Shown piece by piece: positions 21,720 to 40,866 of a DNA stretch of 64,000 bases (its first letter is position 1; each line of letters starts with the position of its first letter). This DNA is from Herbidospora cretacea (lineage in GTDB: Bacteria > Actinomycetota > Actinomycetes > Streptosporangiales > Streptosporangiaceae), in NCBI RefSeq assembly GCF_001570605.1, contig NZ_BBXG01000008.1:234119-298118 (forward strand), in the 5' to 3' direction. Both the position numbers and the translations under genes were made by a program. The notes below the pieces were generated by a model. The model had not been told where the DNA came from. It worked only from the letters and a program-made list of their open reading frames with translations, and made no database searches.

Positions 21720-21845
21720 ATGGAGACGAAAGCGGATCTCGAAGTCGAGATCGTCGAGGACCTGGGATCGGGCTGCTGTCAGGCGTCCGACGTGCCAGAG
21801 GTCGTGGAGACCGAAGAATCCGGCAGCGCCTGCTGCGAAGCCTGA
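21720..21845 (+). CDS. Small acidic Cys-rich peptide 1 (41 aa)
   Basis: ATG 21720 follows GGAGG by 6-7 bases. The 41-residue product has an acidic helix-like first half (KADLEVEIVEDLGSG) and two vicinal cysteine pairs, GSGCCQ and GSACCEA. About a third of the residues are Glu or Asp. The GSGCC core also occurs in peptide 2 at 27215, and both genes carry the same upstream motif, so they are probably paralogues. It heads the operon containing the ATP-grasp ligases. Candidate roles are As(III)-loaded carrier peptide (compare LysW-type carriers used by ATP-grasp enzymes), ribosomal precursor, or metallothionein. None is proven. Confidence 0.75.
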   Translation: METKADLEVEIVEDLGSGCCQASDVPEVVETEESGSACCEA

Positions 21846-21879
21846 CCCACAGAAATCCGATCAGACACGAGGAGTTCCG

Positions 21880-22230
21880 ATGGCGCCCGCAGCAACGAGC
21901 ATCGCGACCCAGCTCATCCAGTTGGCCCCCGACGTCAAAGAGAGCCACACCAGCTTCTCCGACAGCTACCAGACGTTCTTCAACTCCGTCTTCAACGGCG
22001 GAGCGCTCGACCAGAAGTCGAAGGCGGCGGTGGCGCTGGCCTCCGCGCTGCTGCTGGGCCGCGAGGAGACCGTCCGATCCTTCCTCGCCACCGCCAAGCA
22101 ACTCGGCCTCGGCAACGAGGAGATCGGCCAGATCGCCGGCATCGTCGAGGTGATGAAGCTGGACGCGGTCCAGCGCCCCGCCCAGGCACCGGCCGCCGCT
22201 CCCGCCAAGAAGGCCAACACCTGCTGCTGA
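21880..22230 (+). CDS. AhpD/CMD-like helical protein without CxxC, with C-terminal Cys-Cys
   Basis: A 116-residue all-helical protein. FNSVFNGGALDQKSKAAVAL and LLLGREETVRSFL resemble the carboxymuconolactone decarboxylase / AhpD fold, but the catalytic Cys-x-x-Cys and His are absent. Its only two cysteines are the last two residues, reached through an Ala/Pro-rich flexible arm (QAPAAAPAKKANTCC). It therefore looks like a scaffold that has lost disulfide chemistry and gained a thiol tail for binding As(III). It lies 34 bp after peptide 1 and 38 bp before the first ATP-grasp gene. Confidence 0.75.
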   Translation: MAPAATSIATQLIQLAPDVKESHTSFSDSYQTFFNSVFNGGALDQKSKAAVALASALLLGREETVRSFLATAKQLGLGNEEIGQIAGIVEVMKLDAVQRPAQAPAAAPAKKANTCC

Positions 22231-22268
22231 CGCCCGCCCCGACCAAGCGCGAACAGAACGGAGCGCCG

Positions 22269-23555
22269 ATGACCGGCGGCGGCACGACCTCGGCGGGCAC
22301 CGTCGTCCTCATCGGCGGCCGGGCCCACCGCGAATTCAGCCTCTTGCACGAACTCGGCTACCGCATCCTCTACCTGGACCGTCGAGTCCCCTTCTCCTGT
22401 GTGACCTGGGCCGACCTGCCCTTCGACGTGGACGTCGACGACTGGGACGCCGTCTTCGAACTGGTCAAGCACCAGCTCGGCGGACACCCCCCGGCGGCGA
22501 TCCTGACCCATGTGGAGCCACGGATCCCGTTGATGGCCCACCTCTCCGAACTCCTGCTGGACACGCCACGAGGCCTGAGCGTCGAAACGGCGTGGAACTG
22601 CCACGACAAATGGCTGACCCGCAACCGCCTGCGCGAACACGGCGTCCCGGTACCGGGGTTCGGTCTCGCCGACAGCGCCGAAGAGGCGATCCAGATCGCC
22701 GCCGAGATCGGCCTTCCCGTCGTGGTGAAACCACGTGACGAGGCCGGAGCATTCGGCGTTCGGCGGTGCCTCACTCTGCCGGAGGTTCGAGAAGCGGCGA
22801 CCGCGATCCTCTCGGAGTCCGGATCCGGAACCCGGACGGGCGTGCTGGTCGAGGAGTACATCGACGGACCGGAGTACGCCGTGCAGACCCTCACCCGCGG
22901 CGGGCGCACACAGGTGCTGAGCATCTTCCTGCAGCACATGACCGATCCGCCCGTGTTCGTCGAGCTCGGCTACGAGCACCCCAGCGGCCTCGGCGAATCC
23001 GCCGAACTCTCCTTGAGGGAAACGACGGTCGCAGCACTTCAGGCGCTCGGTGTGACCGACTGGATCAGCCACACCCAGGTGCGCCGTGGTCCTGACGGCT
23101 TCCGCGTGGTCGAGGTCAACGCACGCCGGCCAGGTGGCCGCCTGGTCGAGATGACGGAGGCGGTCAGCGGCGTCGACATGACTCTGGCGGCCTGCCAGCT
23201 CGCACTCGGCCTGCCGGTCACCTCCGGCCGGCCGAAAGCGACCCATGCCCTGTACAGCAGCATCGTCTTCGACCGGCCCGGAGTCGTGACCTACCGGACC
23301 GGAATCGACGTCGCGCCGTTCTCCGGCACGCTGCCCCCCATCGTCGAGCTCGAGATCCCCCCTGGCGACCCCGTTCAGGCGGCCGCCCATCCCGAGGGCG
23401 GGGTGTACGGACGGATCGTGGCCTTCGGCGACTCGGCGGCCGAGGCCGGCGAGGGCGTGCGGGGGATCCGCGAAGCGCTCGACCTGCAGGTGACCGAGCT
23501 GGAGGACCTCGCGTGGGAGGTGGCGGACAGTCGTGAATACAAGTCTTGCTGCTGA
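22269..23555 (+). CDS. ATP-grasp ligase 1 with C-terminal Cys-Cys tail
   Basis: A 428-residue ATP-grasp enzyme. A Rossmann-like pre-ATP-grasp domain (about residues 1-110) is followed by the ATP-binding region: LPVVVKPRDEAGAFGVRR, VLVEEYIDGPEYAV and the Mg-site VVEVNARRPGG, with Glu and Asn intact. Such enzymes form amide bonds via acyl-phosphates, as in L-amino-acid ligases and carnosine synthase relatives. The protein ends DSREYKSCC, a short tail outside the fold. It is the most likely active ligase, together with copy 3, in the predicted arsenical peptide pathway. The downstream acyltransferase overlaps its last 23 bases. Confidence 0.88.
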   Translation: MTGGGTTSAGTVVLIGGRAHREFSLLHELGYRILYLDRRVPFSCVTWADLPFDVDVDDWDAVFELVKHQLGGHPPAAILTHVEPRIPLMAHLSELLLDTPRGLSVETAWNCHDKWLTRNRLREHGVPVPGFGLADSAEEAIQIAAEIGLPVVVKPRDEAGAFGVRRCLTLPEVREAATAILSESGSGTRTGVLVEEYIDGPEYAVQTLTRGGRTQVLSIFLQHMTDPPVFVELGYEHPSGLGESAELSLRETTVAALQALGVTDWISHTQVRRGPDGFRVVEVNARRPGGRLVEMTEAVSGVDMTLAACQLALGLPVTSGRPKATHALYSSIVFDRPGVVTYRTGIDVAPFSGTLPPIVELEIPPGDPVQAAAHPEGGVYGRIVAFGDSAAEAGEGVRGIREALDLQVTELEDLAWEVADSREYKSCC

Positions 23556-24675
23556 GGCGACGACGATCTCGGGTCCTTACCGGGTGGAACTCCTCCCCAG
23601 CGCCGCAGGTGTCGAAGCCGCCGCCTGGAACGACGTGGTGCGCCGGGCAGGCGGAACGATCTTCCACTCGTGGGAGTGGCTCACCGCTTTCGAGGAGGCG
23701 CCTCCGGGCGAGTTCGAAGCCGCTCACCTGCTCGCTCATGACGGCGATCAGCTGGTCGGCGTCTGTCCCGCATACCTGGTCCGCCAATGTCCCCGGCTGG
23801 ACCACGCTCTCGCTCTGGGCGAGGCAGAGGATTTACGGGAGCGCGGCCCCATGCTGCTCGCGCACAGTCTCGCCGGTCTTCACGGCGGTCCTCTGGTCCT
23901 GCCCGGCCACCAGCCTGCGGCTCAGGCGCTGGTGGCCGGTCTTGAGCGGACCGCGCGTTCGCTGGGCGCATGGGCATGGGGAGTCGCCAATGTGCCCGCC
24001 GACGGCATGGCCGGACGACTGCTCGGCGCCGGTTACGCCGCCGCCCACGTGGCGACCGCCTATCGGCTGGACACCACGAAAGCCACCCCTGAGGACTACT
24101 GGGCGGCGATGCCCAGACGCCGCCGCGGCAAGGTCCGGCGCGAGCAACGTCTGGGTGCCCGAGAGCTGACGATCGCCGAGGGCGGCCTCGACGAGGACAC
24201 TCTGGTGAGACTCACCCATGATCTCCTTCGCGAACACGACACACCCACGGACGTGTTGCCCGACCCTTTCCTGCGCGCGGTCTCGCGACGCCTGCGCCCC
24301 TACGGGCGGGCCACGATCGCCACCGGCGAAGGCGGCGAGATCGTGGCGGCGTTCGCCGGATGGGAGTTCGCGGGTGAGTGGTCGATGTGGATCGCGGGGC
24401 TGCGCACCGGACGCTATCCGGCCTTCGAGCCGTACCACGCCATGCTCGCCCACACCATCGAGGCCGCGCTCACCTCCGGCACGAGAGTGCTCAATCTCGG
24501 CCGGGGCAACGCCTCCGTGAAGGCTCGGTACGGCGCGGTGGGCACTCCGCTCTACCTCGCCCTCAAATCAGACGACCGGCGCGACACCGCTCTGCTGCAC
24601 GCCTGGTGCCGACGACTGGAGGCCCGCAGTCACGCGTCCCCGCATGGACTCGCGGTGTCGAGCAGGTGCTGCTGA
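23533..24675 (+). CDS. FemX/BioF2-like GNAT acyltransferase with C-terminal Cys-Cys tail
   Basis: A 380-residue protein starting at GTG 23533 within the previous gene. It matches the double-GNAT FemAB/BioF2-like fold: GGTIFHSWEWLTAFE early, EDYWAAMPRRRRGKVRRE in the middle, and the second GNAT half with AAFAGWEF and a YHAMLAHTIEAALTSG helix, then LGRGNASVKARYG. FemX-type members transfer amino acids from aminoacyl-tRNA to amino groups, while others use acyl-CoA; which applies is unknown. The protein ends VSSRCC, the same style of tail as its neighbours. Coupled to ATP-grasp 2 by a TGATG overlap. Confidence 0.8.
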   Translation: MNTSLAAEATTISGPYRVELLPSAAGVEAAAWNDVVRRAGGTIFHSWEWLTAFEEAPPGEFEAAHLLAHDGDQLVGVCPAYLVRQCPRLDHALALGEAEDLRERGPMLLAHSLAGLHGGPLVLPGHQPAAQALVAGLERTARSLGAWAWGVANVPADGMAGRLLGAGYAAAHVATAYRLDTTKATPEDYWAAMPRRRRGKVRREQRLGARELTIAEGGLDEDTLVRLTHDLLREHDTPTDVLPDPFLRAVSRRLRPYGRATIATGEGGEIVAAFAGWEFAGEWSMWIAGLRTGRYPAFEPYHAMLAHTIEAALTSGTRVLNLGRGNASVKARYGAVGTPLYLALKSDDRRDTALLHAWCRRLEARSHASPHGLAVSSRCC

Positions 24676-25877
24676 TGCCGGGCTGGGACGAGGACGGCGA
24701 CCACCGGCCGACCGTGGTGAGCGTGTCCGGCCGCCGGGTGGTGGACGTCATGGTGGAAGCCGGAGTGCGAACCATCCTGTTCGACGACCCGACGCCTCTT
24801 GACTTGGCCTGCGTCGCCGACGTACCCGTGGATCTCGACCTCGATGACTGGTCGGCAGCCGAGTCGGTGTTGAGGCGGCTGCACCACCAGCGACCCATCG
24901 ACGCCGTGATCGGAGTCTACGATCTCCGGCTTCCGTTGACCGCCTACCTCGCCGCCCGGCTGGGAGTGCGGGGGCTGAGCCTGGCGGCCACCATGAACTG
25001 CAACGACAAGCTCCGGATGCGCCTGGCGCTACGTGCGGCTGCCCTAGGCGTTCCCGATCACGTCGTCGTCGCGGAACCGGGTGAGGCGCAGGCCGCGGCC
25101 CTGCGGCTCGGCTATCCCGTGCTCGTCAAGAAGGTGACCGGTGCGGCCGGCGCGGGCACGCTGGTCTGCCGCGATCCTCGCCAGGTCAAGGACGCCGTCA
25201 CCGCTCTTCACGACGAGACGGATCCGCGCCTGCTGGTCGAGGCGTATGTCGACGGCCCGGAATACGCGATCCAAAGTGTCACCCGTGACTCGATCACCGA
25301 AGTGATCAGCGTACTCGCCCAGCATTCCGCGATGGATGGACGTCCGGTCGAACTCGGCTACGACTTCCCCGCCGGACTGGACGAATCCCGGGAGTTCGAC
25401 CTCCGCCGGTTCGTCGCCGCAGCGCTGGAGGCACTCGGCTTCGATCACGGGATCGCCCACACACAGGTGCGGCTCTCGCTGACCGGCCCTGTCCTCATCA
25501 ACGTCAGCGCCCGGCCGCCCGGGGGAAGGCTGTGCGAGATCACCGAAGCGGTCTCAGGAGTGGACATGGTCCGGGCCGCGCTCGACGTGGCGCTCGGCGC
25601 TCCCCTCGGCAGACGGGCGCCGGTGGCCGACCACGTCCGGTACCGGTGCGTGACGTTCGATCAGGCCGGAACGGTGAACTACGACATCGGCGCCCTGACA
25701 GAGGGGGCGGCACCAGCCCCCGTGATCTCCATGGACGTGCACCCCGGCGACCACGTCAGTCCTGAAGGCGGCGTGTACGGCCGGATCATCTCCTACGACG
25801 GCGACCCCGTTTCCCTGGAGCGGCTGACCGACGCCCTCAGCCTGTCCGTTCGGCCCCATCCATCAGAAGGACGGTGA
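24675..25877 (+). CDS. ATP-grasp protein 2, degenerate metal site and no Cys tail
   Basis: A 400-residue ATP-grasp homologue. I start it at ATG 24675 (TGATG overlap); the longer frame is shadow. ATP-binding motifs are kept (YPVLVKKVTGAAGAGTLV, LLVEAYVDGPEYAIQ), but the Mg-binding E-x-N of family members reads LINVSARPPGG, with Asn for Glu and Ser for Asn. It also lacks the terminal Cys-Cys seen in copies 1 and 3, ending HPSEGR. It may be a pseudoenzyme partner in a heteromer, a substrate-binding subunit, or an enzyme with unusual metal use. It is 7 bp upstream of copy 3. Confidence 0.85.
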   Translation: MPGWDEDGDHRPTVVSVSGRRVVDVMVEAGVRTILFDDPTPLDLACVADVPVDLDLDDWSAAESVLRRLHHQRPIDAVIGVYDLRLPLTAYLAARLGVRGLSLAATMNCNDKLRMRLALRAAALGVPDHVVVAEPGEAQAAALRLGYPVLVKKVTGAAGAGTLVCRDPRQVKDAVTALHDETDPRLLVEAYVDGPEYAIQSVTRDSITEVISVLAQHSAMDGRPVELGYDFPAGLDESREFDLRRFVAAALEALGFDHGIAHTQVRLSLTGPVLINVSARPPGGRLCEITEAVSGVDMVRAALDVALGAPLGRRAPVADHVRYRCVTFDQAGTVNYDIGALTEGAAPAPVISMDVHPGDHVSPEGGVYGRIISYDGDPVSLERLTDALSLSVRPHPSEGR

Positions 25878-25884
25878 CACACCC

Positions 25885-27141
25885 GTGCCAGACAACCCGA
25901 CGCGAGTGCTCGTACTAGGCGGCAGGCGCACCGTCACGATGCTCAAGGAACGGACCGACTACGAGGTCGGTTTCGCGGACGAGGACATGCCGTTCGATCT
26001 GCTCGCCCTCGCCGACATCCCTATCGAGGTCGACTTCGACGACTGGGACGGGGTGATGGCCCAGGTCAGTCGCGTCCACGCCGTGCGGCCCTTCGCAGCC
26101 GTGGTCACGCAGGTGGACCGCCTGGTGCCGCTGGCCGGGCTGCTGCGCGAGAGTCTCGGCCTCAGCACGGGGATCACGGCCGAGGCCGCGCGCAACTGCA
26201 ACGACAAGTCCGCCACCCACCGGCGCCTCGCCGAAGCCGGGCTGCCGGTGACCCGTCACCACGTCGTGCACAGCGCCGAGGAGGCCGTGCTGGCGGCCAA
26301 GGACATCGGTCTGCCGGTGGTCATCAAGCCCCTTGACGCCACCAGCGCTGCCGGGCTCATGTTCTGCTCCACCGCCGAGGAGGTCACCGCCGCTGTCGCC
26401 GACATCCTGGCCGGCGGGCGGACCAGCGCCCTCGTGGAGGAATACCTGGTAGGCCCGGAGATCGGTGTGCTGGCGAGCCGGGCGGGCGGACAGACCAAGA
26501 TCCTCTATGTCTTCGAAGCAGAGGTCGGGCCGCCACCCAAGTTCGTCAAGCTCGGCGGCTGGTTTCCCAGCGCCGTCGCCGAGGGAGACCTGACCCTGCT
26601 CAGCGAGCGCACCGAGCAAGCGCTGGCCGCCGTCGGGCTCGACAACTGGGTCGCCCTGCTGCAGTTCATGCTCGTGGAGGACGGCCCCATCGCGGTCGAG
26701 ATCAATCCACGTCTGTCCGGCGGGCAGGGTGTCACGCTCATCGCCGCGACCAGCGGTTACGAACCGACGCTGGTGGCCGTTGAAGCTGCCCTGGGCCGCC
26801 AGTCGGAGCCAGGGGCACCCGAGGCGAGCGTGGGGCTTTACCACAGCATCGTCTTCGACGAACCCGGCCGTCTGTTCTACCGCCCCGAAGCCCTGCGCGC
26901 CGTCGAAGGACTGGAGACGCGCACGCCGCCCTTGATAGAGGTCGACGTTCAGCCGGGTGAAGCCGTGCTCGAACTCAACCACCCCCGGGGCGGCACGTTC
27001 GGGCGGATCGTGCTGGTCGGCGACAGCCGTGAGGCCGTCCTCCGCGACCGTCAGCGGATTCTCGACCAGCTCGACCTGCGGGTCGAACCGGTGCAGGACA
27101 TCGAGACCGAGGTCGCGAAACCGCACACATCCTGCTGCTGA
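25885..27141 (+). CDS. ATP-grasp ligase 3 with C-terminal Cys-Cys tail
   Basis: A 418-residue ATP-grasp enzyme starting at GTG 25885. N-terminal domain RVLVLGGRRTVTML, then ATP-binding LPVVIKPLDATSAAG and ALVEEYLVGPEIGVL, and an intact metal site AVEINPRLSGGQG. It is more divergent from copies 1 and 2 than those are from each other. It ends EVAKPHTSCC. An ordered pair of active ligases (1 and 3) would suffice to build a tripeptide. It is the last gene before the peptide-2 promoter region. Confidence 0.88.
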   Translation: MPDNPTRVLVLGGRRTVTMLKERTDYEVGFADEDMPFDLLALADIPIEVDFDDWDGVMAQVSRVHAVRPFAAVVTQVDRLVPLAGLLRESLGLSTGITAEAARNCNDKSATHRRLAEAGLPVTRHHVVHSAEEAVLAAKDIGLPVVIKPLDATSAAGLMFCSTAEEVTAAVADILAGGRTSALVEEYLVGPEIGVLASRAGGQTKILYVFEAEVGPPPKFVKLGGWFPSAVAEGDLTLLSERTEQALAAVGLDNWVALLQFMLVEDGPIAVEINPRLSGGQGVTLIAATSGYEPTLVAVEAALGRQSEPGAPEASVGLYHSIVFDEPGRLFYRPEALRAVEGLETRTPPLIEVDVQPGEAVLELNHPRGGTFGRIVLVGDSREAVLRDRQRILDQLDLRVEPVQDIETEVAKPHTSCC

Positions 27142-27170
27142 CAGACCCATTGACCGTTTCCAGGTGATCT

Positions 27171-27198
27171 GATTCGATAATCTTGTAATTATCAAATC
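27171..27198 (+). promoter_or_regulatory. Island motif A before Cys-rich peptide 2, strong palindrome
   Basis: GATTCGATAAT-N6-ATTATCAAATC forms a near-perfect palindrome (GATAAT/ATTATC with outer GATT/AATC). It also contains the motif A pattern GATTCGA-N4-CTTGTAATTA. It lies 16 bp before the start of the ATG region of peptide 2, just upstream of GGAAGGAGAG. Confidence 0.65.
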
Positions 27199-27214
27199 AA
27201 GGAAGGAGAGTGTC

Positions 27215-27319
27215 ATGGCGGAAGACATGATCGGCTCCGGCTGCTGCGAGACCAGCGGCATCGAGGACGCCGCCGAAGACGGCGCCGAATGCGCCTGCGC
27301 CTGTGCGTGCTGCGACTAG
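27215..27319 (+). CDS. Small acidic Cys-rich peptide 2 (34 aa)
   Basis: ATG 27215 follows a strong ribosome site (GGAAGGAG). The 34-residue product begins MAEDMIGSGCCETSGIED and ends in a cysteine comb, ECACACACCD, giving seven cysteines in total. It shares GSGCC, acidity and the upstream operator with peptide 1. The alternating C-A-C-A-C-A-C-C tail would make a compact soft-metal cluster site. It stands alone, between its own palindromic operator and a strong hairpin, so it could be transcribed far above the exporter genes that follow. Too short to classify by homology. Confidence 0.72.
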   Translation: MAEDMIGSGCCETSGIEDAAEDGAECACACACCD

Positions 27320-27343
27320 GCCACAGCCGCCCAAGGGCCATCA

Positions 27344-27379
27344 GGCGCGGTCCGTGTCCTGACGGGCGCGGACCGCGCC
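27344..27379 (+). terminator. Strong hairpin between peptide 2 and the exporter genes
   Basis: GGCGCGGTCCG (27344-27354) pairs perfectly with CGGACCGCGCC (27369-27379) across a 14-nt loop. It is 24 bp after the peptide stop and 34 bp before the ABC start. It suits partial termination or 3'-end protection that would favour the peptide mRNA. Confidence 0.65.
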
Positions 27380-27413
27380 GCACCCCAGCGGCCGGCCGGA
27401 AGGGAACAGGGAC

Positions 27414-29111
27414 GTGAAAGAGTCACTCCACGCGTTGCGCTTCATCTACGGTTATCCGCTCCGCCATCGCGGCGCGATGGCCGTGGCCACGGTCACGATG
27501 CTGCTGGGCCTGTTGAACACCATCGCCATCCCGTTGGTCATCCGAGTCGCGATCGACGCCGGCGTGCTGGGCGGCGACCCCGGTCTGCTGCTCGCCGTCG
27601 CGCTGGGCGTCCTGGCCATCGGCGCCCTCTCGGCCGGCCTGCTCCACCTCGGGAAGCAACTCCGCTTCACCGTCGCCAGCAAGGCCGTCAACGACCTGCG
27701 GCACGATCTGTTCCGCAAGCTCCTGCACCTGGGGCCGGCCGACACCGCCGAAGCCTCCGGCGGGCGGGCGCTGACCCGCCTGGTGTCGGACGCGGTGTTC
27801 GTTCGCGGTCTCACCAACGGCGGCATCCTGGAGCTGGCCAACCAGATCGTGGTGACCGCGGTCATGTACCTGGTGGCACTCCTCATCGACGTGCGGACCA
27901 CGCTGCTCGCGTCTCTTCCGCTCGTCGTGGTCATCCTCGGCAACCTGATCGTCCAGGGCCGTCTGCAGCGCATGTTCGTCGAGGTCAAAGGCCAGTTCAC
28001 CAATCTGCTGTCAGGTGTCGGCGAGTCGCTGACCAACATCGGCGTGGTCAAGGCCTTCGGCCGCGAGGAGGACGCCTCCAGCCGCCTCAACAAGATCAAC
28101 GAAGAGCTCGCCGCTCGTCGCGGGACCATGAAGACCACCTACAGCCGGTGGGAGGCCATCCTCAATGTGGTCGGGGCGCTCCCCACGCCCATCGCCCTCT
28201 GGCTCGGCGGAAACGCCGTCCTCGACGGTCAGATCACCGTGGGAAGCCTGGTCGCCCTGACCGCCCTGGTCATGATGGTCCAGATGAGCATGCACATGGT
28301 CACCATGCATGCCAACGGGATCTTCCGCTCGGTGGTCATCGCACAGCGGTTGCTCCGGATCATGGACGCCCGCCCGGCGATTACCGAGGTGTCCGGCAGC
28401 CGCCCCATGCCCCCGCCCAGTGGTGCACTCGCGACAGACGGCGTCGTCGTGGAGATCGGTGACCGGCGTGTGGTCGACGACGTGAGCCTGGCCGTGGCTG
28501 CGGGCGAGTCCATCGCCCTGATCGGCCCGACCGGCAGCGGTAAGACGACCCTGCTGCACGCCTTGGCGCGGCTCCGCGACACCGAGGCCGGCACCGTTTC
28601 GTATGACGGTGTCGACGTCCGCGAGTACGACCTGCGGTCCGTACGGCACCAGGTCGTCTGCCTTCCGCAGCGGCAGTGGATCTTCGAGGGGACGATGGCG
28701 GACAACATCCGCTTCGCCCGGCCGGACGCCACGCCGGAGGAGGTGGCCGACGCCGCCGAAGCGGCCGGTCTGAGCCGCTCCTGTCTGACCAGAGAACTCG
28801 CCGCCAACGCGGCCGATCTCTCGGCCGGGGAGAGGCAGCGGGTCGGGCTGGCCCGAGCCCTTCTCGTGGATCCCGCCGTCCTGCTCCTGGACAACCCCAC
28901 CGCCAATCTCGACGCCGAGACCGAGGCGGAGCTCCTCGACACCATCTTCCGAGTACGCCGTGGCAGAACGCTCATCATCGCCGCGCAGCAACTCGCCGTC
29001 ACTCGCCACGTCGACCGCGTCATCACGATGAAGGACGGCACCCTGGACGACTCGGCGGTCCGATCGCCGGCGCCCGCCGGCCTTCCCGAAGGGGATCAGG
29101 CCCATGTCTGA
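27414..29111 (+). CDS. ABC exporter half 1 (degenerate nucleotide site)
   Basis: A 565-residue fused membrane/ATPase half-transporter starting at GTG 27414. About six helices span residues 15-300, then Walker A GPTGSGKTT, signature LSAGERQRVG and Walker B VLLLDNPTANLD. The catalytic Glu after Walker B is Asn, and the H-loop His is Gln (IIAAQQLAV). This is the asymmetric pattern of heterodimeric exporters such as TM287/288 or BmrCD, where one site binds but does not hydrolyse ATP. The partner is the next gene (8-bp overlap). Likely cargo is the arsenical product or a loaded peptide. Confidence 0.92.
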   Translation: MKESLHALRFIYGYPLRHRGAMAVATVTMLLGLLNTIAIPLVIRVAIDAGVLGGDPGLLLAVALGVLAIGALSAGLLHLGKQLRFTVASKAVNDLRHDLFRKLLHLGPADTAEASGGRALTRLVSDAVFVRGLTNGGILELANQIVVTAVMYLVALLIDVRTTLLASLPLVVVILGNLIVQGRLQRMFVEVKGQFTNLLSGVGESLTNIGVVKAFGREEDASSRLNKINEELAARRGTMKTTYSRWEAILNVVGALPTPIALWLGGNAVLDGQITVGSLVALTALVMMVQMSMHMVTMHANGIFRSVVIAQRLLRIMDARPAITEVSGSRPMPPPSGALATDGVVVEIGDRRVVDDVSLAVAAGESIALIGPTGSGKTTLLHALARLRDTEAGTVSYDGVDVREYDLRSVRHQVVCLPQRQWIFEGTMADNIRFARPDATPEEVADAAEAAGLSRSCLTRELAANAADLSAGERQRVGLARALLVDPAVLLLDNPTANLDAETEAELLDTIFRVRRGRTLIIAAQQLAVTRHVDRVITMKDGTLDDSAVRSPAPAGLPEGDQAHV

Positions 29112-31005: not shown

Positions 31006-31245
31006 ATGTCCGTCACCGACGACAACCTCGGTCAGCTCTTCTGGTCCGCCGCTCAGGGCGAGGCCCCGTCCGCCGCCCAGCCGAAGGCCAAGAGCTCGTG
31101 CTGCGGCCCGAAGCCCACTGCCGAAACCGCCGTGACCAGCGAGCCGGCCCCGGTCAAGAGTTCCTGCTGCGGACCCAAGCCCGCTGCGGACACCACCACC
31201 GAGGCCGTCCCGGTCCCCGCGGCGAAGAGTTCGTGCTGCGGCTGA
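31006..31245 (+). CDS. KSSCCG-repeat protein (79 aa)
   Basis: A 79-residue protein with three copies of KSSCCG, the first two extended to KSSCCGPKP, spaced by about 22 residues of Ala/Pro/Thr-rich linker; the protein ends at the third CCG. The N-terminal 27 residues (DDNLGQLFWSAAQGE) lack cysteine and may be a docking segment. The design parallels the GCCG protein at 12558. Regular vicinal cysteines suggest binding one As(III) per repeat, as a buffer or donor to the exporter. I know no described family for it. Confidence 0.8.
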   Translation: MSVTDDNLGQLFWSAAQGEAPSAAQPKAKSSCCGPKPTAETAVTSEPAPVKSSCCGPKPAADTTTEAVPVPAAKSSCCG

Positions 31246-33098: not shown

Positions 33099-33196
33099 GA
33101 AGCAGCCTCAAGGTCGCCGGCTACCTGGTGCTGCTGGCCGTGGTGTTCACCGTCGCCTACGTCGTAGGCGCCAACGTGCCCCCTATGGAGTTCTAG
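33095..33196 (+). CDS. Single-span membrane micropeptide (33 aa)
   Basis: GTG 33095 overlaps the HMA stop by 4 bp (GTGA). The 33-residue product has a short basic N-terminus (MRSSLK), one transmembrane stretch ([18 protein letters not shown]) and a NVPPMEF end. The coupling overlap and position directly before a Cu-type ATPase suggest a small subunit or regulator of that pump. No homologue is known to me. Confidence 0.65.
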
Positions 33197-33219
33197 GCCT
33201 CGGAAGAGGAGAGGGACCA

Positions 33220-35475
33220 ATGTCCGCACCACCTTCGGCGCTCGCCACGCGCTCCGAGGTCACGCTGTCGATCGGTGGCATGACCTGCGGCTCCTGCTCG
33301 GCCCGCATCGAACGCAAGCTCAACCGCATCGAAGGCGTACGGGCCGAGGTCAACCTCGCCGTCGAGGAGGCCCACGTCGAGTACGACTCCACTGTCTCGG
33401 TGGAGGAACTGATCGCGGTGGTGGAGGGGCTGGGCTACACCGCCTCTTTGCCGATAGCCGAAGAACCTGACGAGCCGAACGCCGAGACGGAATTGCCAGA
33501 GGACCAGCGGCTCGCCACGCTCCGGCAGAGACTTCTGATCACAACGGCACTGACCGTGCCGATCGTCGCCATGGCGATGATCACCCCGCTCCAGTTCACC
33601 TACTGGCAGTGGCTGTCGCTCACCCTGGCGGCTCCGGTCGCCACGTGGGGAGCGTGGCCGTTCCACGTGGCGGCCTGGAAGAATCTCCGCCACGGCTCCG
33701 CCACGATGGACACGTTGATCTCCCTGGGCGTGATCGCGTCCTTCGGGTGGTCGGTGTACGCCCTGTTCCTCGGCTACGCGGGCCTGCCCGGCATGCAGAT
33801 GCCGTTCGTGATGCGGCCGGTCGCCGGAGAAGGACTGCACCACATCTACCTCGAGGTCGCCGCCAGCCTCACCGTGTTCATCCTCACGGGACGCTACCTC
33901 GAGCACCGCTCCAAGCGTCGAGCCGGAGCCGCGCTGCGCGCCCTGCTCGAACTCGGAGCCAAGGACGTGGCGGTCCAGCGGAACGGCCGCGAGGTCCGCA
34001 TCCCCATCGGGCAACTCGCCGTCGGCGACCTGTTCGTCGTGCGCCCGGGAGAGAAGGTCGCCACTGACGGCGTCGTCGTGGACGGCACCTCGGCGGTGGA
34101 CCAGTCCATGCTCACGGGCGAGAGCGTCCCGGTCGAGGTGGGCCCCGAGGACAAGGTCGTCGGAGCCACGGTCAACACCAGCGGACGGCTGATCGTGCGG
34201 GCCACCAGGGTCGGGGCCGACACCCAGCTCGCGCAGATGAGCAGGCTGGTCACCGAGGCGCAGGCCGGCAAGGCCCCGGTGCAGCGACTCGCCGACCGGG
34301 TCGCCGCCGTCTTCGTGCCCGTCGTGGTGGGGATCGCGCTGGCGACCTTCGGTTTCTGGCTCGGGAACGGCCTGGACGCCGCAGGAGCTCTGACAGCCGC
34401 GGTGTCCGTGCTGGTCGTCGCGTGCCCGTGCGCGCTCGGGCTGGCCACTCCGACCGCGCTGCTGGTGGGTACGGGGCGCGGCGCTCAGATTGGAATTCTC
34501 ATTCGCGGGCCGGAGGTCCTGGAGTCGACGCGCCGCATCGACACGATCGTCCTGGACAAGACCGGAACGGTCACCACGGGCGTCATGCGGGTCACCGATG
34601 TCATCGCCGGTGAAGCGGAGAGCACCGACGACGTGTTACGCCGCGCGGGAGCGCTGGAGAACGCCTCCGAGCATCCCATCGCCAAGGCGATCGTCGCCGC
34701 GGCCCACGACAAGCTCGGAACGCTTCCTGAGGTCTCCACGTTCGAGGGCACCGCAGGTCTCGGAGTCAGCGGTGAGGTCGAGGGTGTACAGGTCACGGTC
34801 GGCCGCACCGAATTGCCCGTACCGGACGATCTCGAACGAGCCTTCGCCGATGCCGAGAGCCGTGGGCGGACGGCGGTCACCGTCGGCTGGGACGGGCGGA
34901 TCCGCGGCGTCATCGCCGTCGCCGACACCGTCAAACCGACCAGCGCCGACGGTGTCGCCAGGATGCGCGAGCTGGGTCTCGCGCCCGTGCTGCTCACTGG
35001 TGACAACGACCGGGCGGCCCAGGCGATCGCCGGGCAGGTCGGCATCACCGACGTCGAGTCAGGGGTGCTGCCGAGCGGCAAGGTCGACGTGATCAAACGC
35101 CTTCAGCAGGAAGGTCACGTCGTCGCGATGGTCGGCGACGGCGTCAACGACGCGGCCGCCCTTGCCCAGGCGGACCTGGGCATCGCGATGGGCACCGGGA
35201 CGGACGCCGCCATCGAGGCAGGCGACATCACCCTGGTCCGGGGCGACCTGCGGGCCGTGGGCGACGCCGTACGGCTGTCCCGCCGCACCCTGTCGACGAT
35301 CAAGGGCAACCTGTTCTGGGCCTTCGCCTACAACCTCGCCGCGCTTCCGCTGGCCGTCATCGGCGTGCTCAACCCGATGATCGCCGGTGCCGCGATGGCC
35401 GCCTCCAGTGTGTTCGTCCTCAGCAACAGCCTCCGCCTGCGCCGCTTCCAGGAGAGCGCCGGGAGCGAGAGATGA
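33220..35475 (+). CDS. Cu(I)-type P1B ATPase
   Basis: A 751-residue heavy-metal ATPase starting at ATG 33220 after GGAGAGGGA; longer frames are shadow. One N-terminal HMA domain ([15 protein letters not shown]), eight predicted helices, the membrane metal site [10 protein letters not shown], phosphorylation site [15 protein letters not shown] and GDGVND. The last helices carry [11 protein letters not shown] and [12 protein letters not shown], the YN and MxxSS pattern of Cu(I) pumps rather than Zn/Cd ones. Beside HMA, micropeptide and YtkA-like genes it forms a copper-handling subset inside the arsenic island. Its relation to arsenic chemistry is open. Confidence 0.9.
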
Positions 35476-35795
35476 ACCCCTTGGCGCGGGAACCGCTGGC
35501 CGTCGAGGAGGCGAAGTCCTTCGCCCAGGTCTTCAAAGCGCTCGGAGATCCGGTACGGCTACGCCTCCTTTCGGTGATCGCCTCTCACCCCAACGGCGAG
35601 GTCTGCGTCTGCGACATGTCCGAGGACTTCGACCTGTCGTCGCCGACGATCTCCTACCACCTGAAGGCCCTCCGGGCCGCCGACCTCATCGACGCCGAAA
35701 GACGGGGCACGTGGGTGTACTACCGCGTGCAGCCGCAGATGCTGAGCTCGCTGTGCAGACTGCTCAACGTCCCGGAGGACGTGGGAGCCCGATGA
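35472..35795 (+). CDS. arsR: ArsR family regulator (copy 3)
   Basis: A 107-residue repressor: [31 protein letters not shown] as metal site, recognition helix [17 protein letters not shown] and wing [10 protein letters not shown]. It lacks the N-terminal Cys pair of copies 1 and 4, so it resembles the plasmid-type ArsR that binds with the CVCD cysteines. It overlaps the ATPase stop (ATGA) and the next gene's start (ATGA), so it is embedded in the biosynthetic operon rather than having its own promoter. Confidence 0.92.
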
Positions 35796-36724
35796 TCAAG
35801 AAGACCGTCCTCGGTGTGCCGATGGCCCTCGTCGACGTCGACGAGGCGCTCAGCGGGGCCTGGAAGGATCTGGTCCACGAGGTGGACGTGATCAGGGTGC
35901 AGAAACCCTCGCCTGACGACTGGCTTGCCCTGGCCGCCTGCGGTTTCCTGCCCAAACCGCAGGTCGTCACCTGGCGGGCGGCCGCGCTGGGAAGCGAGGA
36001 GGAGTTCCTCGCCCGCCTGGCCCGCCGGGACCGGCAGAACGTCGCGGCGGCCCGTCGTCGAGGTGAGGCCGCGGGTCTGCGCTTCGACGTCCGGCCCGTC
36101 ACCCCCGGGCTGATGGACGTCTTCGTCCCCATGTACGAGCGCCAGGTCGCCGGCATGCGTCACGGATGGCCCGTGGCCACCCGTCATCGTGACCACATCT
36201 TGTCCTCCGGCGACAGGTACTTCGCCGTCTGCGCGTGGGATGGCGAGGAGCTGGCCGCCGCGTGCATCACTCTTTGGTCCCCGGAGGCCGACGAGGTACG
36301 GGCGCGTTTCGTGACGTCGGCGCCCACGCATCGCGGAGGCGAGGTGTCGCGCGTGCTGTACATGCGGCTGATCGAGGAGGCGCGCCACCGGGGCCAGTCG
36401 TGGGTGAGCCTGGGCAGCGACCCGAACCTCTACGGGCACCTCGGCCAGCCAGGGTTGTTCAGCTTCAAGAGCCGCCTGGGGTTCGACGCGCTGCCTTCCC
36501 ACGAAGTGGACGGGTCCGCGCCCTCGGAGCAGGCCGACAGGATCGTGGGCCTGCGCGCCCTCTCCGACCCGTCCTTCGTCCTCGCCTACCCGGTGGACAC
36601 GGACGGCCGGCCGCGACGCGGACCGGACCTGCGGCTGGAGATGTACAGCGGTCGCGCGGACCTGGATGTGCGGCCCTACGCGACCGCTCGTGTGACCGGT
36701 GTCCGGGTGAACACGGTCGGCTGA
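35792..36724 (+). CDS. Second FemX/BioF2-like GNAT acyltransferase
   Basis: A 310-residue protein starting at ATG 35792 in the arsR stop. Second-half GNAT motifs: YFAVCAWDGEELAAACITLW, RVLYMRLIEEARHRGQSWV and LGSDPNLYGHLGQPGLFSFK. Residues RDRQNVAAARRRGEAAGL form the connecting basic helix typical of FemAB-like folds. It has no Cys-Cys tail. A role in amide formation on the arsenical, or N-acetyl self-protection, is plausible. Its end touches the convergent molybdoenzyme gene (adjacent stops). Confidence 0.75.
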   Translation: MIKKTVLGVPMALVDVDEALSGAWKDLVHEVDVIRVQKPSPDDWLALAACGFLPKPQVVTWRAAALGSEEEFLARLARRDRQNVAAARRRGEAAGLRFDVRPVTPGLMDVFVPMYERQVAGMRHGWPVATRHRDHILSSGDRYFAVCAWDGEELAAACITLWSPEADEVRARFVTSAPTHRGGEVSRVLYMRLIEEARHRGQSWVSLGSDPNLYGHLGQPGLFSFKSRLGFDALPSHEVDGSAPSEQADRIVGLRALSDPSFVLAYPVDTDGRPRRGPDLRLEMYSGRADLDVRPYATARVTGVRVNTVG

Positions 36725-39247
36725 CTACGCCTTGGACACCCGGCACGCGAAGCACTTGTACGCCTGCTGGCCGGACAGGTTGTCGTACAGACGGTCGTCG
36801 ATGAGGGTGTTCGCCGCCTCGTAGCGCGGGTCGTCGTAGAGATCGCCGACCTGCTGGGCGGGTCCGAAGGTGTTCGGCAGATAGATGGTGTCGGTGCGGA
36901 TGCCCTCGTCCAGCAGGGCGGTTCCGGTCACCGACCCGCGCGGGCTCTCGACGACGACGTCGTCCCCGTCGGCGATGCCCAGACCTCGGGCCGTGTCAGG
37001 GTGGATCTGCACCAGCCGCACTCCGTTGAGCCGCTTGCCGGTGGGGGTCCAGTGCGTCACCGACGCGAAGTGGACCACGCTGGGCCGTCCGGTCATCCCC
37101 ATCAGCGGGAACCGGCGGTGCACGGCACCGGATCCCGGGACACCCAGGCGCACCGGATGGGTGAGCGCGTGGGGATTGATCGGGTTGGCGATGTAGCGGT
37201 CGTCATAGGCGATCGTGGGGTGCGCGCCGGTGACCTCGGGGTGGGTGTAGAACGACGGCAGTGCGTGATGACCACTGGGCGCCAGTCGTTGCTCCAGGTC
37301 GGGCGTGTAGATCTCGATCTTGCCGCTGGCGGTGAGGAATCGCTTCCCGCGGTGTCCCAGTGATTCGGCCGCCTGGTACCAGCTCGGGTGATCCAGGTAG
37401 AGCGTGCTCACTCCGGGGTGGTCCGGAGTGGGGCACGGCCACTTCAACGGCTCCGTCCGGGCTTTGAGTCGCTCGCGGGTCATGCCCCCCATGCCGGGTG
37501 TGTTCGCGACGAAGGTGTCCCACAGCTTGCCGTAGTCACGCCACGACTTCGAGAAGGCGTCCGTCCAGTAGGAACTGGGACGCCGCCTGTCATTGCGAGC
37601 GAGCGCGTAGGCAAGGTCGACCCAGATCTCCGTGTCGGAGCGCACCTGGCCGACGCGTTCGACGGCTGCTTCCTGCCAGCGGATCGCCCGGTCGTCGCGG
37701 CGCATGTACACGCCTTCGAATTCAAGGCCGCTGGTGACGGGCAGGATGATGTCGGCGTAGTAGGCGGCCTCTTCCATGAACAGGCCGGTGTAGACGTAGA
37801 AGTCGAGCTTCTCGAAGGCCTCCCGCACCCGCTTGGTGTTGGCCGAGCTGACCAGCGGGTTCCCCTCGGTCATCACGGCCTTGAGCCGGTACGGCTTGCC
37901 GGTGAGGATCGACTCGGCGAAGGTGTCCGGCCCGACGGGCAGCGCCGGGCCGCGCTCGGGCGGAGTCACCTTCAAAGGCGGCAGGTTGAGGCCTCCCGGC
38001 CAGGTGTTGTGCATGAAGTTGCATCCACCGCCCGGCACTCCGATGTTGCCGGTCACGGCCGCCAGCATGGCCAACGTCCGATAGGTGTCGAACGCCCCGA
38101 GCTGGTGGGAGATCCCGGCGTTGCAGAAGATCGCGGCCGGTCGGGCCGTGGCGTAGTCGACCGCCAGCCGGCGGATCGTGCTCGCCGGAACGCCGGTGAT
38201 CCCGGCAGCCCAGTCCGGCGTGTAGCCCTTCTGCACCAGATGGGCACGGAGCTCGTCGAAGCCGAGCACCCACTTCTCGACGAAGGCCTTGTCGTGGCGG
38301 TCGGTCGTGATGATGTGGTGCAGCATCCCCAGAACGAGGGCGAAGTCGGTGTGCGGCTTCGGAGCGACCCAGGTGTCCGCGACCTCCGAGGTAGGTGTGC
38401 TCCGGGGGTCCACCACCACGAGGCGTGCGCCCGTACGTTTCCGTTCGCGGAGCAGGTGCGCGAAGGTCACCGGGTGGGTCTCGGCCTGGTTGGTGCCGAG
38501 GAAGAGGAAGAACTTCGCCGCCCCGAGGTCCTCCTTGCCGGTCGCACCGTCGACGCCGTAACCGTTGGTGAAGTTGCCCAGCCCGAACGTGGTGGCCAGG
38601 GCGTTGCCTCCGGCGTCGTTGCAGACCGGGCCGACATCGGTGTCGTTGGGGCTGCCGAGAAGAGCGAACACTCGGCCGGCCAGCGAGCCCGTGCCTCTGG
38701 GCAGCCGTCCACTGGTGCGGTTCGCGATGGCCCTGGCCTCACCCGCGTCGCGCAGCGCCAGCCAGCGGCGCGCGATCGTGTCCAGCGCGTCGTCCCAGGA
38801 GACAGGCTCGAACCGGCTCTTCGGGTCGCCCTTGCGGCCCGAGACGCGGCGAAGCGGAGTGGTCAGGCGCAACGGGTTGTAGACGAGTTCGGTCATCATC
38901 CCGGCCTTGACGCACAGGTTGCCGTCCTGGACCGGGTCCTTCTCTTCACCGCGGATCTCCAGAACCCGGCCGAGTCTCGTGGCGACCTTGATGCGGCAGT
39001 TGCTGTTGCAGAACTGACAGGCGCCGTCGGCCACCCGGTCCGGAGTCAGCGCCGCCGAGCCGACCGTGAAGTCCGGCATGGACGACCCGACGACCACGTC
39101 TGCCGGAGGAGCAGCCGCGAACGCGGACTGAGCCGCCGGCGGGACGATTCCTACGACGCCGCCGGCGGCACCGGCGACCACCGCACCGCGCAGAAGCCCG
39201 CGCCGTGTGATGCCGTCGCTGTCCTGGGCACGGGTTTCCTGATCCAT
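36725..39247 (-). CDS. Tat-exported molybdopterin oxidoreductase (DMSO-reductase superfamily)
   Basis: An 840-residue catalytic subunit starting at ATG 39247 behind AAGGAGCT. A Tat signal (TRRGLLRGAVVAGAAGG) is followed by a 4Fe-4S site (CQFCNSNC, then NLCVKAG), and a Cys in DVGPVCNDAGG sits where a Mo ligand is found in polysulfide/thiosulfate/arsenate-type reductases. No electron-transfer or membrane-anchor subunit is adjacent, so the partner is unknown. In an arsenic island, extracytoplasmic arsenate/arsenite or arsonate redox chemistry is the natural guess; general nitrate or sulfur-compound reduction cannot be excluded. Confidence 0.85.
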   Translation of the reverse strand: MDQETRAQDSDGITRRGLLRGAVVAGAAGGVVGIVPPAAQSAFAAAPPADVVVGSSMPDFTVGSAALTPDRVADGACQFCNSNCRIKVATRLGRVLEIRGEEKDPVQDGNLCVKAGMMTELVYNPLRLTTPLRRVSGRKGDPKSRFEPVSWDDALDTIARRWLALRDAGEARAIANRTSGRLPRGTGSLAGRVFALLGSPNDTDVGPVCNDAGGNALATTFGLGNFTNGYGVDGATGKEDLGAAKFFLFLGTNQAETHPVTFAHLLRERKRTGARLVVVDPRSTPTSEVADTWVAPKPHTDFALVLGMLHHIITTDRHDKAFVEKWVLGFDELRAHLVQKGYTPDWAAGITGVPASTIRRLAVDYATARPAAIFCNAGISHQLGAFDTYRTLAMLAAVTGNIGVPGGGCNFMHNTWPGGLNLPPLKVTPPERGPALPVGPDTFAESILTGKPYRLKAVMTEGNPLVSSANTKRVREAFEKLDFYVYTGLFMEEAAYYADIILPVTSGLEFEGVYMRRDDRAIRWQEAAVERVGQVRSDTEIWVDLAYALARNDRRRPSSYWTDAFSKSWRDYGKLWDTFVANTPGMGGMTRERLKARTEPLKWPCPTPDHPGVSTLYLDHPSWYQAAESLGHRGKRFLTASGKIEIYTPDLEQRLAPSGHHALPSFYTHPEVTGAHPTIAYDDRYIANPINPHALTHPVRLGVPGSGAVHRRFPLMGMTGRPSVVHFASVTHWTPTGKRLNGVRLVQIHPDTARGLGIADGDDVVVESPRGSVTGTALLDEGIRTDTIYLPNTFGPAQQVGDLYDDPRYEAANTLIDDRLYDNLSGQQAYKCFACRVSKA

Positions 39248-39429
39248 CGGCGGGAGCTCCTTACGCGGGTTCCAGCGTTCAGATGAGCCAGGTGCGCCGG
39301 CCGCAGCCTGAACTCCACTAGGGATCACTGAGGGGTCACCGCATTGATCTCACGCCGGATTCGCCCGGCGAAAGCGATCGTCACGGCAGCAACCTGCCCG
39401 GCACCTTGGTGCCACGGCCGACCAGCAGA

Positions 39430-39505
39430 ATAGATGAACGTCTATCTTGACAGGCTTCTAATCAAGGGCGAAGCTGGTATTACTTAGACAGTCTTCTAAC
39501 CAAGG
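39430..39505 (+). promoter_or_regulatory. Cluster of three ArsR-type boxes before the flavoprotein gene
   Basis: ATAGA-N6-TCTAT at 39430-39445, then two imperfect direct repeats 37 bp apart: TTGACAGGCTTCTAATCAAG (39447-39466) and TTAGACAGTCTTCTAACCAAG (39484-39504). The last also reads TTAGA-N6-TCTAA and abuts the ribosome site, so a bound repressor would block initiation. Confidence 0.65.
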
Positions 39506-39513
39506 TGGGCATC

Positions 39514-40866
39514 ATGAGCGCATCCGCCAACCCCGGCAACCTTCCTGTAGCCGTCATCGGCGCCGGTCCCGTCGGGCTGGCCGCTGCGGCACACCTGGCC
39601 GAACGCGACATCGACTTCGTCGTTCTCGAGAGCGGCCCGAAGGTCGGTTCCTCAGTCGCGAAGTGGGGCCACGTCCGGGTCTTCAGCCCCTGGCGCTACA
39701 ACATCGACACCGCCGCCCGGCGCCTGCTGGAAGCCGACGGCTGGACGGCGCCCGACGACGACTGGCTCCCGACCGGCGCGGAGATCGTCGAGAACTACCT
39801 CGCCCCGCTCGGCAAGCTCTTCGCGGATCGCGTCCAGGTCGACGCCACGGTCACCGCGATCAGCAGACTCGGCTACGACAAGGTCCGCACCGACGGCCGA
39901 GAGCGGGCCCCCTTCGTCCTGCGCCTGTCGGACGGCCGGGAGATCCAGGCACGCGCGGTCATCGACGCCTCGGGGACGTACACCAGCCCGAACGTCCTCG
40001 GCGCGAGCGGCCTGCGCGCTTTCGGCGAGGAGACCGTCACCGAACTCATCGACCACGCCCTCCCCGACGTCCTCGGCGACGACCGTGACCACTACGAGGG
40101 CCGCCACACCCTGGTCATCGGCGCCGGCCACTCGGCCGCGACCACCCTCCTGGCCCTGGCCCAGCTCGACGACACCCCCATCACCTGGGCCATCCGCGCC
40201 GGAAACGCCAACCGCACCTACGGCGGCGGCGCGGCCGACGCGCTGCCCGCCCGGGGCGCTCTCGGCACCCGCGTGCACGACCTGGTCACCTCGGGCCGCA
40301 TCCGGCTCGTGACGGGCTTCTTCACCCACCGGGTCAGCGCCCACGCCGACGGGGTGGAGGTCACCAGCCGTGACCCGCTGGGCGATGAGCAGTCCATCGT
40401 GGCCGAGCGCATCGTCAGCGCCACCGGCTACCGCCCCGACCACTCGATCGCCGAAGAGCTGCGCCTGGACCTCGACCCCATCCTCGGCAGCACCCGCGCT
40501 CTCGCGCCGCTGATCGACCCCAACGCCCACTCCTGCGGCACCGTCCCCGCTCACGGCGTCGACGAGCTCACCCACCCCGAAGCGGGCTACTACGCGGTCG
40601 GCGTCAAGAGCTATGGCCGCGCCCCGACGTTCCTGATGGCCACCGGCTACGAGCAGGTGCGCTCAGTGGTGGCCGCCATCGCCGGTGACTGGGAGGCGGC
40701 CCGCTCGGTCGAGCTCGACCTGCCGGAGACGGGGGTCTGCTCGTCCAACCTCGCCGAGGCCCAGGAGCAGCGCGTCGGCCTGGCCACCGGGGTGAGCGGC
40801 GGTCTTCTCGGCACACCCCTCGCGCTCGCCGCCACCCCTTCCGACGGCGGCGGCTGCTGCGGCTGA
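39514..40866 (+). CDS. Flavin-dependent oxidoreductase (ArsO-like) ending in GGCCG
   Basis: A 450-residue two-dinucleotide-binding flavoprotein. ATG 39514 is preferred over GTG 39505 because AAGGTGG sits at proper spacing. FAD site AVIGAGPVGLAAAAHL, NADPH site LVIGAGHSAATTLLAL and the SATGYRPD region match flavin monooxygenase/ArsO-type proteins of ars operons. A CC-containing end (DGGGCCG) repeats the island's Cys tail theme. Related genes are proposed to oxidise or otherwise handle arsenicals. A near-identical C-terminal fragment lies at 13361-13501. Confidence 0.85.
   Translation: MSASANPGNLPVAVIGAGPVGLAAAAHLAERDIDFVVLESGPKVGSSVAKWGHVRVFSPWRYNIDTAARRLLEADGWTAPDDDWLPTGAEIVENYLAPLGKLFADRVQVDATVTAISRLGYDKVRTDGRERAPFVLRLSDGREIQARAVIDASGTYTSPNVLGASGLRAFGEETVTELIDHALPDVLGDDRDHYEGRHTLVIGAGHSAATTLLALAQLDDTPITWAIRAGNANRTYGGGAADALPARGALGTRVHDLVTSGRIRLVTGFFTHRVSAHADGVEVTSRDPLGDEQSIVAERIVSATGYRPDHSIAEELRLDLDPILGSTRALAPLIDPNAHSCGTVPAHGVDELTHPEAGYYAVGVKSYGRAPTFLMATGYEQVRSVVAAIAGDWEAARSVELDLPETGVCSSNLAEAQEQRVGLATGVSGGLLGTPLALAATPSDGGGCCG

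Follow-up and report, generated by a model that had tools for sequence, protein, structure and literature searches.

The present analysis concerns a 64,000-nucleotide stretch of the Herbidospora cretacea genome (contig NZ_BBXG01000008.1, positions 234,119 to 298,118 of the forward strand), referred to below as the window and numbered from its own first letter. Within it lies a gene cluster in which proteins of several folds end in two adjacent cysteines (CC). The cluster is of the bsn arsenic type, as judged from the adjoining homologues of BsnM (16978..18294, +; EPSP-synthase family, PF00275) and BsnN (18291..19877, +; iPGAM family, TIGR01307), and a BsnM homologue is present in all 13 clusters compared below. 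A review proposes that the bsnM and bsnN products convert As(V) to arsonopyruvate (PMC12159101).

The CC tails had been noticed in a first-pass annotation, and re-reading of the sequence together with control genes confirmed them on several different proteins. Four enzymes end exactly in CC. These are a 116-residue AhpD/CMD-like protein (21880..22230, +; PF02627, 30.9 bits; ending NTCC), an ATP-grasp protein resembling L-amino-acid ligases (AG1; 22269..23555, +; ATP-grasp_4; ending SREYKSCC), a FemX-like GNAT protein (GNAT1; 23533..24675, +, with a possible start at 23584; Acetyltransf_6; ending SRCC) and a further ATP-grasp protein (AG3; 25885..27141, +; assigned by domain scan; ending HTSCC). 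A CC lies near the end of four other products, namely a flavoprotein distantly like ArsO and FMO enzymes (39505..40866, +; Pyr_redox_3; ending GGCCG), a peptide with three SSCCG units (31006..31245, +; ending KSSCCG), a 49-residue peptide with two CC pairs, one in GSGCC and one in its end GSACCEA (p49; 21696..21845, +) and a 34-residue peptide with eight cysteines that contains GSGCC and ends CACACACCD (p34; 27215..27319, +). A GCCG-repeat peptide had also been placed between 21720 and 40866; it is in fact encoded at 12558..12794 on the reverse strand. Since all 13 clusters contain a peptide of the GCCG type, it still counts as a member of the cluster. Tails are absent from a second ATP-grasp protein (AG2; 24672..25877, +; domain scan) and a second GNAT protein (GNAT2; 35792..36724, +; PF13480), which serve as internal negative controls, and from both ABC genes, the P-type ATPase, the aminotransferase and the molybdenum (Mo) oxidoreductase described below.

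Seven of the 23 genes called between 16978 and 42733 encode CC within the last six residues, and four of these end exactly in CC. Genes were called with a purpose-made codon-usage caller rather than Prodigal, and this caller missed p49. Control sequence totalling 800 kb from other parts of this genome, about a tenth of its length, yielded 635 genes, none with CC among the six final residues (Fisher P = 2e-11 for 7/23 against 0/635). The same was true of 171 genes from the Kutzneria genome of locus L040 and 165 from the Streptomyces genome of locus L073, so that the pooled controls stand at 0/971. With cysteine at 0.71% of residues in the own-genome control, simple arithmetic predicts a terminal CC about once per 20,000 proteins. 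On these samples, chance or a general habit of the genome is ruled out as the source of the tails. The first-pass annotation had named a similar tail frequency in unrelated proteins as an outcome that would count against it; the unrelated proteins sampled had no such tails.

Conservation and specificity of the tails

Relatives were collected by scanning genome contigs with BsnM, which gave 63 loci. Thirty-seven are actinobacterial (L038-L074), and the rest are distant EPSP-synthase relatives with 30-47% identity. The actinobacterial loci were divided into type A, with the ATP-grasp module present (10/37), and type B, in which the module was not shown (27/37); the type-B stretch L074 is too short to reveal it. 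Streptomyces sp. NBC_00154 carries two BsnM loci (L066 and L073) on one contig, one of them of type A. A BsnM search of 396 genomes of the phylum gave one close match beyond the window's own genome (G182, 71%), and the other matches, at 45% identity or less, look like ordinary AroA. A search with AG1 in 392 genomes of a single large genus, presumed to be Streptomyces, gave two orthologues, both beside BsnM/BsnN; two other genomes there held distant ATP-grasps only (34-36%). The AhpD-like protein, searched in 394 genomes of the class at E 1e-10, matched the window's own copy only. The set of 13 clusters comprises the window and clusters from Herbidospora, Sphaerimonospora, Kutzneria, six named and two presumed Streptomyces, and one actinobacterial metagenome-assembled genome (MAG).

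In all 13 clusters the AhpD-like protein, AG1, GNAT1 and AG3 end exactly in CC, whereas AG2 and GNAT2 do so in none. The positions directly before the pair are far more variable than the pair itself. CC in the last six residues was encoded by 43 of 181 genes in the ten type-A loci and by 20 of 434 in type-B loci, as against none of the 971 controls. It had been proposed that homologues should be aligned for co-occurrence with arsenic genes, and that clusters of the same type without tails would speak against a common tag. No such cluster was seen, and the four enzyme tails were met only in arsenic clusters, across genera, within the sample.

Relatives of the tailed enzymes outside the clusters lack the pair. 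None of 25 out-of-cluster ATP-grasps (sets of 8, 3 and 14) has a CC tail; L266, one of the set of 14, was read in two frames and had CC in neither. No tail is present on the six further CMD-family proteins detected in the window's genome or on the single out-of-cluster relative of GNAT1. Among all loci collected, L258 repeats L161 and was counted once. As a phosphorus counterpart, we took 32 stretches around the strongest matches to phosphoenolpyruvate (PEP) mutase in the same large genus, from 33 matches at E 2.1e-81 or better (G774:C85 was left out). The curated cut-off of the family was passed by only 3 of 382 genomes, and the remaining loci rest on match score and on the motif EDKxxxxxNS, which we take to be diagnostic of PepM and which is present in 32/32. 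ATP-grasp homologues at these loci had no CC tail (0/27, a count in which true phosphonopeptide ligases were not sorted from the others), and CC in the last six residues occurred in one of 525 genes, an 81-residue open reading frame (ORF) in L325 that is probably spurious. At one locus (L331), genes for an aminotransferase, two ATP-grasps and PEP mutase are consecutive, an arrangement like that of phosphonoalamide clusters, and no tails occur. The two counts for ATP-grasps, 0/25 and 0/27, rule out the tail as a general trait of these proteins.

The tails had been described as lying outside the folds, and this holds for the two proteins that were modelled. The AlphaFold models have a mean predicted local distance difference test score (pLDDT) of 88-89, and this score drops under 50 over the final 14 residues of AG1 (415-428) and the final 8 of GNAT1 (356-363). 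The nearest solved structures to AG1 are L-amino-acid ligases (3vot, also RizA 4wd3 and BacD 3vmm). The best Foldseek match of GNAT1 is FemX 7z6a (E 2.8e-13, TM 0.65-0.70, 13% identity), and GNAT1 is also structurally like the tRNA-dependent peptide synthases Sbb17 and Sba18. GNAT1 is therefore modelled with a FemX fold, and its dependence on aminoacyl-tRNA is putative. The AhpD-like protein lacks the CxxC of AhpD/CMD peroxidase active sites in 13 of 13 orthologues despite its PF02627 match. Its tail pair provides the sole cysteines in 6/13 and is joined by one further cysteine in 7/13.

The addition of the tails had been called convergent. This is only partly right because ATP-grasps 1-3 are paralogues. 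They form three well-supported clades whose join is open, and AG1 and AG3 may owe their tails either to one gain followed by loss in AG2 or to two gains. What stands is that the tails are borne by three folds (ATP-grasp, CMD and FemX-like GNAT), less strictly by a fourth, that of the flavoprotein, and by peptides.

Flavoprotein, small peptides and neighboring genes

The flavoprotein had been counted among the tagged members on equal terms, and this needs a limit. It scores 49 bits against the ArsO model NF040505, below the 425-bit cut-off, and a PDB sequence search at E 1e-5 gave no match. A relative lies in the fetched stretches of 9/13 clusters. A search for relatives gave 20 loci, and the ends of 13 were read; the ends of L238 and L241 were seen in a separate reading. 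CC occurs in the C-terminal part of all 13, in the last six residues in 6 and further in in 7, and a strictly terminal position is confined to the window and its nearest relatives. Near-terminal CC also occurs on at least six relatives away from the clusters, five of them beside ArsR-type genes. The CC of the flavoprotein is thus linked to arsenic and yet not peculiar to the peptide module. In type-B loci the tails are on other proteins, namely the flavoprotein, ArsI/CadI and a FemAB-like GNAT. This last protein has CC motifs at both ends (L059 6666-8036, L064 6707-8092, L169 from 5510).

Among the small peptides, p34 is present in 13/13 clusters, and the acidic residue after its final CC is D, once E. 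Its identity between the window and the six named Streptomyces is 82-85%, as against 49-70% for the enzymes. A function as shuttle or carrier is possible for p34. A role as precursor of a ribosomally synthesized and post-translationally modified peptide was considered, and no enzyme so named stood out in general scans of the window proteins, which included no search aimed at such enzymes. A counterpart of p49 was found in L038 only, among the 12 other clusters. The SCCG-repeat peptide is present in 12/13, the exception being the MAG stretch L158, in which it was not found. Small peptides of another kind, of the form GKKGGVLGRL...SDCCSVQIVEE with further CC, lie in other arsenic loci (L061 17008-17220, -; L063 18087-18335, -), and that of L063 had no NCBIfam match.

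Between BsnN and the first tailed enzyme are a protein related to the C-terminal region of CTP synthase (19874..20620, +; NF004836, 264.8 bits against a cut-off of 260) and a PHO4-family transporter (20602..21621, +; PF01384). Two ABC half-transporters (27414-29111 and 29104-31002, +; together 27414..31002) follow p34. Further on are an aspartate-aminotransferase-like enzyme fused to an HMA domain (31701..33098, +; PF00155, PF00403) and a heavy-metal P-type ATPase, also with an HMA domain (33187..35475, +; TIGR01525). The fusion of aminotransferase and HMA domain recurs in several relatives, but in L154, L156, L159 and L160 the two are encoded by separate neighboring genes. An aminotransferase relative is present in 12/13 clusters, none being found in the Sphaerimonospora stretches L039/L152, and a P-type ATPase in 12/13, none being found in the MAG stretches L067/L158. 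The Mo-oxidoreductase (36725..39328, -; PF00384) ends CFACRVSKA and has an N-terminus that we presume to be Tat-like; its relatives occur at 27/37 actinobacterial BsnM loci. Beyond the flavoprotein lies an ArsK-like MFS transporter (41120..42352, +; NF033733, 184 bits, below the 400-bit cut-off). ArsR-type regulators with a CC pair near the N-terminus are encoded at 14455-14838, 14835-15197 and 42383-42733, and two ORFs at the right edge (42739-43559, -) presumably represent a transposase in pieces. On the left, an M28 peptidase (11311..12615, -; PF04389, 75 bits) adjoins the GCCG peptide, and the same pair is side by side in L252 (17166-18586). The pair (11311-12794, -) and its recurrence in L252 indicate that the cluster reaches further left than the first-pass annotation had drawn it.

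Judging from these assignments, the genes beside BsnM/BsnN form a peptide-assembly module consisting of the aminotransferase, three ATP-grasps, FemX-like GNAT and transporters. The features expected of an ATP-grasp phosphonopeptide pathway, an aspartate-aminotransferase-like enzyme and L-amino-acid ligases, are present, with the ligase structure match limited to AG1. PEP mutase was not matched among the window proteins scanned, the search being confined to these. The cluster probably builds an arsenic-containing peptide, which by analogy would be a peptide of arsonoalanine.

Possible role of the tails

Based on these observations, we favor, with moderate confidence, the joint proposal that the product of the cluster resembles phosphonopeptides but has arsenic in place of phosphorus, and that the CC tail serves as a dithiol handle for a trivalent arsenical during assembly. 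BsnM/BsnN-type enzymes would supply arsonopyruvate, the aspartate-aminotransferase-like enzyme would convert it to arsonoalanine, and amino acids would be added by ATP-grasp ligases and FemX-like tRNA-dependent transferases. Those enzymes and peptides that deal with the arsenical while it is trivalent and reactive towards thiols would bear the tail as a flexible arm with two thiols. R-As(III) would be bound there through both cysteines, as a bis-cysteinyl adduct, and offered to the adjacent active site. Thiol exchange would then move the arsenical on to the following tail or to a CC-rich peptide acting as shuttle, and at no point would the toxic intermediate be released. The flavoprotein CC, where present, would take the arsenical for re-oxidation ahead of export. 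AG2 may be a plain dipeptide maker that never touches arsenic. Its lack of a tail would fit the logic of phosphonoalamide synthesis, because one ligase there makes plain dipeptides and the other joins the phosphono amino acid. The proposal is supported by the tails of the four enzymes in all 13 clusters and by their absence from AG2, GNAT2, out-of-cluster relatives and the ATP-grasps of PEP-mutase loci.

Several points weigh against this proposal. Arsono compounds contain As(V), which does not bind dithiols. A reduction step is therefore needed, and no reductase for an arsenical intermediate was recognized among the cluster proteins; the Mo-oxidoreductase and the AhpD-like protein, which lacks CxxC, are no more than candidates. 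AG2 and GNAT2 appear to work without tails in all 13 clusters. These clusters are a small set, some of them closely related (e.g. L055 and L072), and their arsenic context is partly a matter of construction, as most were found via BsnM and only the two from the AG1 search are independent of it as query. The module is also uneven, with no aminotransferase found in the stretches L039/L152 and no flavoprotein in the fetched stretches of 4/13 clusters. Finally, at least six flavoprotein relatives with near-terminal CC lie away from the clusters (L229, L234, L235, L236, L238, L241).

A more elaborate form of the dithiol-handle proposal is a metalloid-tethered assembly line, in which the trivalent arsenical would stay bound as a bis-cysteinyl adduct throughout and move by thiol exchange along the tails of the AhpD-like protein, AG1, GNAT1, AG3 and, in clusters that have one, the flavoprotein, with p34 as shuttle. 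The tether would then be the arsenic atom itself, not a thioester on a carrier protein. We regard this form as tentative, a possibility that is more doubtful than probable.

Among other explanations, the tails could be redox-active dithiols that cycle between dithiol and disulfide to reduce an As(V) intermediate, or C-terminal redox arms like those of thioredoxin reductase, with no stable arsenic adduct. The AhpD-like protein speaks for this, as it lacks CxxC in every orthologue and has the terminal pair alone in 6/13, a pattern suggestive of relocation of the catalytic dithiol to the tail, and the GGCCG end of the flavoprotein resembles the tails of high-Mr thioredoxin reductases. However, we know of no redox chemistry for ATP-grasp ligases or FemX-like transferases, and the flavoprotein matches FMO/ArsO-type models weakly and has no CxxxxC in its sequence. 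We consider a redox role unlikely.

The tails could also be docking or switch elements, either bridged by As(III) into a complex or activating the enzyme when inorganic As(III) is bound. The four tailed enzymes neighbor one another within 21880-27141, and three of the ArsR-type regulators around the cluster have CC near the N-terminus, which fits such a role. A docking tag would, however, be expected on AG2, which lies between two tailed genes, and we find this explanation quite improbable. A further possibility is a thiol sponge, in which CC-rich peptides and tails would protect the cytosol and the enzymes against arsenite and take no part in the reactions. The number of SCCG/GCCG repeats differs between clusters, as in a metallothionein-like buffer. 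Against this, four enzymes each bear one CC pair precisely at the C-terminus in every one of the 13 clusters and AG2 and GNAT2 have none, which does not resemble a sponge, and p34 is better conserved than the enzymes. We consider a sponge slightly less probable still than docking.

Virtually no weight is given to read-through artefacts, with the terminal TGA read as selenocysteine, or to nucleotide-level signals: all 41 tails of the first set are encoded TGC TGC TGA, but in the own-genome control 92% of cysteines are encoded by TGC and 64% of genes stop at TGA, frames downstream of the stop are not conserved and several end at once, and AG3 ends TGC TGC TAG in L104 and L105 and TGC TGT TGA in L103. 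These synonymous changes in Cys codon and stop mean that the protein and not the DNA is conserved, and they refute this explanation for AG3; selenocysteine read-through was rejected. Lipidation, as at the CC ends of eukaryotic Rab proteins, was considered as a hypothetical alternative.

Taken together, the original suggestion that the tails are a shared handle for As(III), for substrate hand-over or for docking fares well in part. Their confinement to arsenic clusters within the sample, their conservation and, for AG1 and GNAT1, their position outside the fold all stand. The wording on convergence, the flavoprotein and novelty has to be narrowed, and the binding and hand-over that make the tail a handle are what we infer from this pattern.

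Comparison with known systems and significance

The closest described cluster is that for bisenarsan in Streptomyces lividans, which shares BsnM/BsnN homologues and genes for arsenic regulation and transport; bsnMN are described as widespread with diverse surroundings (PMC12159101). Unlike it, the window has an aminotransferase, three ATP-grasps, two GNATs and CC tails, and 24 window proteins scanned with Pfam gave no match to polyketide synthase or phosphonopyruvate decarboxylase, as would mark a bisenarsan subtype. The phosphonoalamide pathway (PnaABCD) is similar in that an aspartate-aminotransferase-like enzyme acts on a C-P (here C-As) pyruvate before ATP-grasp ligation, and tRNA-dependent GNAT-family enzymes are named for argolaphos, dehydrophos and fosfazinomycin (PMC11867202). 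A further likeness is the match of the AG1 fold to RizA. In contrast to phosphonopeptide pathways, arsenic would enter via BsnM/N and not PepM, and the ATP-grasps at the 32 PEP-mutase loci are tail-less.

Terminal cysteine pairs themselves have precedents. MerA binds Hg(II) at cysteines of its C-terminus, which presumably deliver the ion to the active site (PMC4500099). The cluster likewise has terminal cysteine pairs; unlike MerA, which is one enzyme of another fold acting on inorganic Hg(II), it has them on several biosynthetic enzymes, and its flavoprotein lacks the CxxxxC active-site motif. SaoC is a 'Cys-Cys-COOH' selenoprotein, with a CC or CU carboxyl terminus, of the SAO operon, which encodes a set of selenocysteine-bearing proteins and is tied to organometallic chemistry (PMC13188914). 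The SAO system is built on selenoproteins, unlike the window cluster, and the SaoC model NF040734 was not among the listed NCBIfam matches of the scanned window proteins. ArsI/CadI is an arsenic/heavy-metal protein with a C-terminal CC (e.g. in L043); it is a single enzyme seen in type-B loci and not in the window cluster. The ArsM/AhpD selenoprotein NF041537, in which an AhpD domain is tied to arsenic, is the best NCBIfam relative of the AhpD-like protein. The match reaches only 40 bits against a 510-bit cut-off, and NF041537 is a fusion selenoprotein with UxxG and CxxU as its listed motifs.

The first-pass annotation knew of no described system with such a tag. This holds for biosynthetic pathways, for which no precedent was found, but not for single proteins, given MerA, ArsI/CadI and SaoC. 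A literature search over titles and the opening parts of abstracts gave no terminal CC common to unrelated biosynthetic enzymes; papers on bsn clusters may mention one. Terminal CC on single arsenic and mercury proteins is thus already known, and its sharing across the enzymes of a biosynthetic pathway appears, within that search, to be new.

If the dithiol-handle proposal is correct, these clusters would represent a new way to hold a toxic intermediate, with a heteroatom and not an acyl group as the point of attachment, and the handle would be a two-residue tail added to existing enzymes. Arsenic metabolism of the bsn type would be extended to peptides, and terminal CC on unrelated neighboring genes would be a simple genomic marker for arsenic natural products. 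Setting these clusters beside those with PEP mutase makes the proposal directly testable, as the reactions are similar, one element is changed and the tail is present or absent.

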